Origin: Deltaproteobacteria bacterium
GTDB taxonomy: Bacteria; JAUYMQ01
NCBI GenBank assembly: GCA_030698575.1
Contig: JAUYMQ010000469.1
Coordinates: 1-21,340, forward strand
Reading direction: 5' to 3'
DNA: 21,340 nt
Shown: in pieces, positions 3,747 to 6,279 of the stretch
Layout of the letters: the number at the start of each line of letters is the position of its first letter
Numbering within the stretch: position 1 is the first letter of the stretch
Program-made: the position numbers and the translations under genes
The notes under the pieces: generated by a model
Database searches by the model: none
The model's input: the letters and a program-made list of their open reading frames with translations, nothing else
Told to the model about the DNA's origin: nothing

Positions 3747-4403
3747 CTACCGGCTCCCGCCCTGCTGCCCCTCCAGTGCCTTCTCGTCGCCGTCGCCGCC
3801 TGTCACCCGCTCCCAGACTGATCGCGCCTGCCGCGCCGTCTCCCCGGGCTCACCTGAATTGTCGATCACGTAATCAGCCATCCCGGCCTTCTCGTCGAGC
3901 GGCAGCTGGGCCTCGATCCGCGCCAGCGCCTCCGGGCGCGACAGGTCGTCGCGCGCCATGAGCCGGCGGAGCTGGGTTTCCGGGTCGACGTGCACTACCA
4001 GGATGGCGTCGGCTGGGAGCGGGGCGCCGCTGCCCCGCTCCAGGTTCTCGAGATAGAGGGGAATGTCCAGCACAACGGCCTGCGCGCCCCCGGCGGCGTG
4101 CTCTGCGACCCGCTCGGCAATGCGGACGCCGATGCGAGGGTGGGTGATGCGCTCGAGGAGGGCGCGGCGTTCGGGATCGGAGAAGATGATCTTCCCGAGC
4201 TTCTCGCGATCGACCTGGCCGTCGGGCCGCAGGACGGCCTCGCCGAAGGCCTCCACGATTTCACGATGCGCATCCCGGCCCGGCTCCACGACCTCGCGGG
4301 CGATGCGGTCCGCGTCGATGATGGGCACCCCCATCTCCGCGAGCGTGGCGCACACGGCCGACTTGCCGGACGCGATGCCGCCGGTAAGCACAACAAGCTT
4401 CAT
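3747..4403 (-). CDS. coaE: Dephospho-CoA kinase
   Basis: CoaE phosphorylates the 3'-OH of the ribose of dephospho-CoA with ATP, the last step of coenzyme A synthesis, in the cytoplasm. The predicted protein has 218 residues, close to the usual ~200. The P-loop GGIASGKS is at residues 8-15, followed by the family's IIDADRIAREVV segment and the THP(R) motif of the CoA-binding region (ERITHPRI). The C-terminus ends DYVIDNSGEPGETARQ, then a short charged tail. An upstream in-frame ATG at 4505 would add 34 residues unlike any CoaE, so I chose the ATG at 4403; GAGGA lies about 10 bases before it. The gene is the first of a two-gene unit with the hotdog protein. Confidence 0.94.
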   Translation of the reverse strand: MKLVVLTGGIASGKSAVCATLAEMGVPIIDADRIAREVVEPGRDAHREIVEAFGEAVLRPDGQVDREKLGKIIFSDPERRALLERITHPRIGVRIAERVAEHAAGGAQAVVLDIPLYLENLERGSGAPLPADAILVVHVDPETQLRRLMARDDLSRPEALARIEAQLPLDEKAGMADYVIDNSGEPGETARQARSVWERVTGGDGDEKALEGQQGGSR

Positions 4404-4495
4404 GGCCTGGAGGTTCCTCGAGAAGTTCGGGCGAGAGGCCCGGGGCAATTCTTGTAGGCGCGTCTGGGCGGGCGCGTCCAGCGTCAATTGAGTTC

Positions 4496-4524
4496 CGGGT
4501 ACCATGCACCCTGTGACCTGTCAA
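4496..4524 (-). promoter_or_regulatory. Possible coaE promoter
   Basis: On the minus strand a perfect TTGACA (4524-4519) is followed after 17 bases by TACCCG (4501-4496), a poor -10 match. It would start transcription about 85-90 bases before the coaE ATG. The weak -10 keeps confidence low. Confidence 0.3.
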
Positions 4525-4589
4525 ACCAACGGGCGATCGTCGGGCGCGAGGGGCTACACGCTTGCGCGTGGGGCGGCGGGCGCTCCCTT

Positions 4590-4624
4590 CCACAGCCCGG
4601 AGGGCCGCGTGCCCACAGCCCGGA
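4590..4624 (+). repeat. Direct repeat of CCACAGCCCGGA
   Basis: Two identical 12-base copies lie at 4590-4601 and 4613-4624, offset by 23 bases (about two helical turns). The core CCACAG recurs at 4678-4683 within the DnaA-box sequence. The function is unknown; a regulator-binding site is possible. Confidence 0.5.
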
Positions 4625-4637
4625 CATCTCCTAAGGT

Positions 4638-4694
4638 ATTGGAATAACTTGACTTTAAAAGGACTTCGGCGCGTTATCCACAGGACATTCCAAT
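4638..4694. promoter_or_regulatory. Inverted repeat ATTGGAAT / ATTCCAAT flanking a DnaA box
   Basis: ATTGGAAT at 4638-4645 and its exact reverse complement ATTCCAAT at 4687-4694 are separated by 41 bases. Between them is TTATCCACA at 4674-4682, identical to the consensus DnaA box. A half-site GGAAT follows at 4701-4705, just before the promoter at 4710. The placement, immediately upstream of a strong promoter in a divergent intergenic region, suggests regulatory binding sites. Confidence 0.4.
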
Positions 4695-4709
4695 GCTGCC
4701 GGAATCTGC

Positions 4710-4739
4710 TTGACAGCGCCAGCGGCACGGACCTAGGAT
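4710..4739 (+). promoter_or_regulatory. Strong sigma70-type promoter without an adjacent gene
   Basis: Perfect -35 TTGACA at 4710-4715, an 18-base spacer, and -10-like TAGGAT (4 of 6) at 4734-4739. The predicted start is near 4746. It points toward the terminator at 4899-4946 rather than directly at a coding gene. Confidence 0.5.
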
Positions 4740-4745
4740 GTTGTG

Positions 4746-4946
4746 AAATCACTACACGCTCGCACCGCGGGCTGGCGCGTGTCGCTGCCCGCCGCGGGCG
4801 AAGTAGTCAACGCTTGATTGTCGGGTGGAGGGCCAGGGGCCGGCGATTCCGTGGAGGAGCACCCGGGTCAAGGCTTCCGGTCTTTCCATCCGGCATCGAG
4901 GGTGAGCCTGTGCCAACCTCCCCCCCAGCAGGCTCACCCTTTTTTT
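4746..4946 (+). ncRNA. Candidate small structured RNA or pheA-operon leader
   Basis: A unit of about 200 bases lies between a consensus-like promoter and an intrinsic terminator. It contains no convincing coding ORF. It can form local helices: ACTAC (4751-4755) with GTAGT (4803-4807); inside that, ACACGC with GCGTGT or alternatively GCGGGC with GCCCGC; then an eight-pair helix ATTGTCGG with CCGGCGAT that includes two G-U pairs. The final hairpin is the terminator. I found no 4.5S RNA, tmRNA, 6S or T-box signature. It may be a free sRNA. It may instead be a premature-termination leader of the aromatic operon, whose first gene begins about 220 bases after the terminator, but no clear antiterminator or Phe/Tyr/Trp-rich leader peptide was seen. 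Confidence 0.45.
4899..4946 (+). terminator. Strong intrinsic terminator
   Basis: A perfect 12-bp stem, AGGGTGAGCCTG (4899-4910) with CAGGCTCACCCT (4929-4940), an 18-base loop, and seven consecutive T (4940-4946). It terminates rightward transcription before pheA, although no plus-strand protein gene lies upstream of it back to the TetR gene. Confidence 0.88.
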
Positions 4947-4958
4947 GTCTCCGCCCCT

Positions 4959-4979
4959 TAAGTGGGACAGTCCCTCTTA
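4959..4979. repeat. Palindrome centred on GGGACAGTCCC
   Basis: GGGAC-A-GTCCC at 4964-4974 extends outward as TAAG / CTTA with one T:T mismatch, giving a 21-base imperfect palindrome. GGGACAGTCCC-type palindromes are, as I recall, common dispersed REP-like or transposon-end repeats in several environmental bacterial genomes. No transposase is adjacent. It could equally be an operator for pheA. Confidence 0.4.
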
Positions 4980-4996
4980 TCAGCCCGTAAGCTCTT

Positions 4997-5042
4997 GAAA
5001 AATAAAAATTAATTTGATTTTCGGAGGACTCTGGGGTAGGTT
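4997..5042 (+). promoter_or_regulatory. Likely pheA promoter with AT-rich UP element
   Basis: A -35-like TTGATT at 5014-5019 and TAGGTT at 5037-5042 are spaced by 17 bases. Immediately upstream is an A/T-only tract (4998-5013), very unlike the surrounding GC-rich DNA, as expected for an UP element bound by the alpha subunit of RNA polymerase. It would give a leader of about 120 bases before the pheA GTG. Confidence 0.45.
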
Positions 5043-5058
5043 CCCCGGCTGTCACCGA

Positions 5059-5101
5059 GTCGGCCGCCGCCGACGCCTGGCGATCCCTCGAGCATGCTCG
5101 A
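5059..5101 (+). promoter_or_regulatory. Structured pheA leader: hairpin and 14-bp palindrome
   Basis: GTCGGC (5059-5064) pairs with GCCGAC (5069-5074) around a 4-base loop. A perfect 14-bp palindrome TCGAGCATGCTCGA lies at 5088-5101. Both sit between the proposed promoter and the pheA start. The palindrome could be a repressor operator or an RNA hairpin; no T-run follows it. Confidence 0.35.
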
Positions 5102-5169
5102 AAACCAAAGGATCCCGGGCACTTCCCTGCGCCATCGCCGGGTCGGGAGGTTGGAAGACCGAACTGCCT

Positions 5170-6279
5170 GTGAACCCCAAAGGCTCCGGAAAGAACTCCC
5201 GGACGGACAACCAGGAAATTCAGGGCCTTCGCGAACGCATCGACGACGTCGATCTGAAGGTCCTGAAGCTTCTCAACGCCCGCGCCAAGCTCGCCGCCGA
5301 GATCGGGAAGGTCAAGTCCCGCTCTCGCCGCACCGTCTACATCCCCAGCCGCGAACGCGAGATTTTCAAGCGCCTCACCGCCGCCAATGAGGGGCCCTTT
5401 CCCAACGAGGGGGTCCGGGCGGTCTTCCGCGAGATCGTCAGCGCCTCGCGATCCCTCGAGCGCCCGCTCAAGGTCGCCTACTTCGGCCCTGAAGCCACCT
5501 TCACGCACCTGGCCTCGCTCCGGCAATTCGGCGGATCGGCCCAGCACGTCCCGCGCGCCGGCATCGCCGACGTCTTCGACGCCGTCGAGCGGCGCCAGGC
5601 CGAGTACGGCGTGGTCCCCGTCGAGAACTCCACCGAGGGAGTCGTGAGCCACACGCTCGATCTCTTCGTGACGAGCGATCTCACCATCTTCGCCGAGATC
5701 GTGCTTCCCATCAGCCACGACCTCCTCTCGCAATCGGGCAAGCTGGAAGACGTCGCCCGGGTCGTCTCGCACCCCCAGGCGCTCGCGCAGTGCCGCAAGT
5801 GGCTCGACCGCAATCTCCCGAACGTTCCCCGGCTCGAGGTTCACTCGACCTCCGCGGCGGCGCAGGCGGCGAAGGAAGATCCCACGACTGCCGCGATCTC
5901 CAGTGAGTTCGCCGGCGACTACTACGGACTCAAGGTCGTGCAGAGCAAGGTCGAGGACAACGTGAACAACGTCACCCGCTTCCTGGTCATCGGCCACGAG
6001 ACGCCGCCCCGGAGCAAGCACGACGTGACCTCGCTCATGTTCTCGATCAAGAAGGACGAAGTGGGCGCCCTCTACAACGTGCTCGAGGTGTTCGCGCGCA
6101 ACCGGGTGAACCTTTCGAAGATCGAGAGCCGCCCGATGAAAAACCAGGCCTGGGAGTACATCTTCTTCCTCGATCTGCAGGGGCACCTCGCCGAACCGGC
6201 GGTGAAGAAGGCGCTCAAGGAAGTCGAGAAACGCTGCTTCTTTTTGAAGGTCCTCGGAAGCTACCCGAGGGCGGGCTAG
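5170..6279 (+). CDS. pheA: Chorismate mutase / prephenate dehydratase (P-protein)
   Basis: This bifunctional cytoplasmic enzyme converts chorismate to prephenate and then to phenylpyruvate for phenylalanine synthesis. From the GTG start it has 369 residues, the normal P-protein length. An AroQ-type chorismate mutase domain (about 14-95: LRERIDDVDLKVLKLLNARAKLA) is followed by the prephenate dehydratase domain (about 99-275: KVAYFGPEATFTH, VPVENSTEG, and the catalytic TRF at 269-271). A C-terminal ACT domain follows, with the phenylalanine-binding ESRP at 319-322, which predicts feedback inhibition by Phe. The only in-frame ATG upstream (5014) would add 52 unrelated residues and overlap the promoter, so GTG at 5170 is preferred; its ribosome-binding site is weak. 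It is the first gene of a tightly spaced aromatic operon. Confidence 0.95.
   Translation: MNPKGSGKNSRTDNQEIQGLRERIDDVDLKVLKLLNARAKLAAEIGKVKSRSRRTVYIPSREREIFKRLTAANEGPFPNEGVRAVFREIVSASRSLERPLKVAYFGPEATFTHLASLRQFGGSAQHVPRAGIADVFDAVERRQAEYGVVPVENSTEGVVSHTLDLFVTSDLTIFAEIVLPISHDLLSQSGKLEDVARVVSHPQALAQCRKWLDRNLPNVPRLEVHSTSAAAQAAKEDPTTAAISSEFAGDYYGLKVVQSKVEDNVNNVTRFLVIGHETPPRSKHDVTSLMFSIKKDEVGALYNVLEVFARNRVNLSKIESRPMKNQAWEYIFFLDLQGHLAEPAVKKALKEVEKRCFFLKVLGSYPRAG

Follow-up and report, generated by a model that had tools for sequence, protein, structure and literature searches.

We propose that positions 4710 to 4946 of the window, that is, of the whole stretch of 21,340 nucleotides that was analysed, hold a free-standing, lineage-specific non-coding RNA gene, a candidate small regulatory RNA (sRNA), and we put the probability of this reading at about 0.58. 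Sequence analysis establishes a promoter, an intrinsic terminator, a lack of coding potential and an excess of folding stability, while the transcription of the unit, its separation from that of pheA and whatever function it may have are what we infer. RNA polymerase would start near position 4746, driven by the promoter at 4710–4739, and would make an RNA of about 200 nt with two long hairpins, synthesis ending at the intrinsic terminator at 4899–4946. The pheA gene would be transcribed separately, probably from an AT-rich region past the terminator.

The unit lies inside a 766-bp divergent gap between coaE (3747–4403, minus strand; Pfam CoaE, E 1.1e-56) and pheA (5170–6279, plus strand), which encodes a chorismate mutase/prephenate dehydratase with an ACT domain (Pfam CM_2, PDT and ACT). 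The latter is the first gene of an operon in the order pheA-hisC-tyrA-aroA; Pfam backs the names coaE, pheA, tyrA and aroA, and for hisC only the aminotransferase class. The start of pheA is presumed to be the GTG at 5170, about 220 bases downstream of the terminator of the unit. This start is uncertain (5145–5218): the GTG is without a well-spaced ribosome site, and the alignment of PheA to its relatives mostly starts near residue 15–17. The source genome, assembled as a draft of 4.13 Mb split over 653 contigs, has a completeness of 91.6%, and the window has a mean GC content of 67%.

The promoter is sigma-70-like and consists of TTGACA (4710–4715), an 18-nt spacer and TAGGAT (4734–4739) on the plus strand, matching the consensus at 10 of 12 positions and placing the predicted transcription start near 4746. 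It is the only site with at least 9/12 matches within 4000–6000, where 0.2 are expected. Over 20 kb and both strands, two such sites are present against 1.2 expected by chance, and the match at 4710 is therefore good but by itself not decisive, because chance alone would place a site of this quality roughly once in every 20 kb. The same frequency speaks for the unit being a remnant or spurious, that is, a real terminator behind a chance promoter-like site, with an RNA that is not stable or functional. We consider this unlikely for reasons given with the terminator and the fold. For a perfect TTGACA with a −10 element of at least 4/6, shuffling predicts 0.05 occurrences per window, and two are present. 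The second of these, at 2237–2264, lies ahead of a gene of the tetR family at 2316. The window has a single perfect DnaA box (TTATCCACA, 4674–4682), 27 bases upstream of the −35 element of the unit.

The intrinsic terminator (4899–4946, plus strand) has a 12-bp stem (4899–4910/4929–4940) whose arms are complementary at 12 of 12 positions and 18 nt apart, enclosing the loop GCCAACCTCCCCCCCA (4912–4927), which measures 16 nt if the U-G pair 4911–4928 forms as well. In the predicted ensemble this loop is unpaired with a probability of at least 0.93. The T run of seven (4940–4946) contributes its first T to the stem and the other six follow it. Neither strand of the window has another perfect stem of 8 bp or more with T6. 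Shuffled windows contain 0.003 stems per window under that rule, and none of 300 shuffles gave a stem of 12 bp; the terminator is far beyond chance. Both signals described in the preliminary description, a perfect TTGACA with a TAGGAT −10 element and a perfect 12-bp stem with seven T, thus stand, with the qualification that the first T is part of the stem. A strong terminator without an upstream gene on the same strand needs a transcript to act on, and coaE points away, which argues against a remnant.

The RNA predicted between these signals (4746–4946, plus strand) is a candidate sRNA of about 200 nt by its folding, its lack of coding potential and the absence of an Rfam match. In the predicted fold of 4744–4948, the terminator hairpin is preceded by two long hairpins; the minimum free energy is −104.4 kcal/mol (z −3.76), and shuffled sequences fold at −84 to −86 kcal/mol. 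Depending on the boundaries, the z-score of the unit is −3.8 to −4.3 (−4.27 for 4746–4947). Of the 284 window segments scanned, the one that begins at 4801 takes first place. Hairpin A (4751–4807) has the base ACTAC..GTAGT and G-U pairs in its stem (segment 4746–4812, z −3.4); hairpin B (4816–4896) has a long stem and the apical loop AGGAGCA (segment z −3.1). Both fold significantly more stably than shuffles, which again speaks against a spurious unit, and the earlier suggestion that the enclosed RNA can form several helices is borne out by the predicted structure. The sole long frame crossing the unit (4562–4990) has no Pfam match, and the seven possible ATG, GTG or TTG starts within the unit show no obvious ribosome site and no convincing small ORF, in agreement with the earlier statement that no protein gene lies between the signals.

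The main rival reading is that the unit is an attenuated 5′ leader of pheA-hisC-tyrA-aroA, in which pheA is transcribed from the promoter at 4710, and the terminator is bypassed once the leader refolds in response to a ligand, a protein or a tRNA signal. Control by attenuation is familiar from aromatic operons. The unit lies on the pheA strand with only the 220 or so bases between its terminator and the presumed pheA start, and the site at 4710 is the only good promoter consensus upstream of pheA. Transcription attenuation depends on a competing helix that keeps the terminator from forming. The predicted fold of an RNA truncated before the 3′ arm of the terminator contains the same hairpins A and B, and nearly all of the 5′ arm is left without a strong competing upstream helix. 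An extension of hairpin B (4813–4818 with 4895–4900) does touch the terminator, as a leader would need, but contests only the first two bases of its stem. Since the truncated RNA keeps both hairpins and the 5′ arm has no strong competitor, no antiterminator helix that would seriously compete with the terminator is visible in these folds, which were computed without ligand or protein, and termination looks constitutive. Furthermore, none of the seven possible starts opens a Phe/Tyr-rich leader peptide of the pheL type with a ribosome site, the T-box covariance model matches nothing in the region at E≤5 and nothing elsewhere in the genome, and no other Rfam leader was recognized. Comparable terminator architecture is also absent from the regions ahead of pheA at 107 other loci, apart from two weak matches. 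We regard the leader as improbable, though a more serious contender than a remnant. The preliminary description had left the choice between a free-standing sRNA and an attenuated leader open, and the sRNA fits better because a strongly competing helix, a leader peptide and a T-box are all lacking.

For the free-standing sRNA to be independent, pheA would need a promoter of its own. The AT-rich tract at 4992–5022 (plus strand), the lowest-GC 30-mer in the window with 4 of 30 G or C, may hold it. The support is circumstantial: of the second, AT-rich promoter described earlier, the base composition is confirmed and the promoter consensus is not, the best sigma-70 match in the tract reaching only 8/12 with a 15-nt spacer. 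Between the terminator and this tract, directly after the former, lies a single REP-like palindromic repeat, TTAAGTGGGACAGTCCCTCTTA (TAAGTGGGACAGTCCCTCTTA), at 4958–4980. Its core has 55 strand-counted matches in the genome versus 0 for a reversed control. These cores often occur in inverted pairs, resembling BIMEs (loci L155–L170), and the genome contains three Y1_Tnp (REP-type transposase) genes, all on other contigs.

Membership in a known RNA family, such as 6S RNA, SRP RNA or T-box, diverged past recognition, is very improbable. The size and the rod-like hairpins would fit the range of such RNAs, but the Rfam covariance search proposed in the preliminary description identified no family for the unit at gathering or at relaxed thresholds and returned only a chance miRNA match. 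6S RNA is present elsewhere in the genome and T-box is absent from it, and this reading is already largely refuted. Specifically, 6S RNA (RF00013) has no match at the unit, and a T-box identity was rejected on the searches described above. The two 6S matches of the genome (L009 and L010, on contigs C338 and C171) are 96% identical over the 482 bases at the ends that they share, and are probably strain variants of one locus or a mis-binned duplicate.

The unit is single-copy in its genome, and among 59 genomes searched at the DNA level, its own included, only the unit itself matched. A covariance model built from this single sequence and run against 98 genomes and 58 sources found only the unit, plus one chance match (E 0.14); for more than 40 of the genomes stricter filters were used, with which weak matches can be lost. 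A homologue was thus found neither in 97 other genomes, all outside its phylum, nor at 57 related loci. The search of phage DNA gave no homologue, and the search of viral contigs for the terminator pattern gave no match. Among named genomes, the closest pheA is 59% identical and has a different upstream neighbour, and its upstream region contains no such promoter-to-terminator unit. The comparison with other pheA upstream regions revealed no conserved architecture and no similar terminator unit in the 107 other loci; in one of the two weak terminator matches, the terminator follows a tRNA-like sequence. The adjacency of coaE and pheA was not seen in the other loci compared, some of which have only about 1.5 kb of flank. 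A literature search for pheA attenuation with T-box or Deltaproteobacteria found no papers. These results show that the unit is not widespread among the genomes covered, which lie outside its own phylum. The lack of a homologue in these genomes, and with it of conservation that would support the helices, weighs against the sRNA reading and is also a point in favour of a remnant.

If the free-standing sRNA is made, its most likely action would be base pairing with mRNA through the unpaired C-rich terminator loop, in particular the segment CCAACCUCCC, which is anti-Shine-Dalgarno-like; this is speculative. The 16-nt loop (GCCAACCUCCCCCCCA) is predicted to be almost fully unpaired and includes ACCUCC, the anti-Shine-Dalgarno core. 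Bases 4913–4922 of the loop could pair without a mismatch, along all 10 nt, with GGGAGGUUGG at 5145–5154, upstream of pheA on the plus strand (GGGAGGTTGG in the DNA). A complement of 10 nt was reached in 12 of 5000 shuffles of 4950–5190. The duplex of the loop with the pheA start region has a predicted energy of −27.6 kcal/mol, the best value among 15 start regions of the window; it ranks within about the top 0.6% of 1064 background windows. This complementarity is suggestive and was found post hoc. GGGAGG, the core of the site, stops 19 bases short of the presumed GTG, a long spacing for a Shine-Dalgarno sequence, and longer mRNA folds are predicted to hold the site in paired form. Hfq was not found in this genome of 91.6% completeness, a point against the sRNA reading. 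We give little credence to the specific proposal that the loop pairs with GGGAGGUUGG before pheA and makes the RNA an Hfq-independent repressor of the aromatic operon, acting in trans or, where transcripts occasionally read through, in cis.

Overall, the well-formed promoter-to-terminator unit is real, and it is an ordinary, plausible orphan sRNA candidate. If transcribed, it would add a new family of small RNAs from a sparsely sampled phylum and from a genome without a detected Hfq, and the RNA would adjoin, and perhaps act on, a biosynthetic operon of a kind that elsewhere is often under attenuation control. Otherwise, it adds to a long list of orphan intergenic sRNA candidates, which are common in bacteria.

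With its run from promoter to terminator placed shortly ahead of an aromatic biosynthesis operon, the unit resembles the attenuated leaders of amino-acid operons, but unlike leaders of the leader-peptide and T-box types it has no leader peptide, antiterminator or T-box match. In Listeria monocytogenes, the sRNA LhrC uses CU-rich sites, one of them in the terminator loop, to bind a Shine-Dalgarno region without needing Hfq (PMC4132741). The unit shares with LhrC a C-rich terminator loop (CCUCCC), an anti-Shine-Dalgarno character and possibly the independence from Hfq; it differs in length (about 200 nt versus 111–114 nt), in being single-copy and in that its target is putative, and the likeness is one of working principle only. 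A difference from intergenic, independently transcribed bacterial sRNAs is that no Hfq was found in this genome; the unit resembles these RNAs, as far as can be judged from its sequence, in having its own promoter, a length of about 200 nt, a structured and non-coding RNA, and an intrinsic terminator with a T run.
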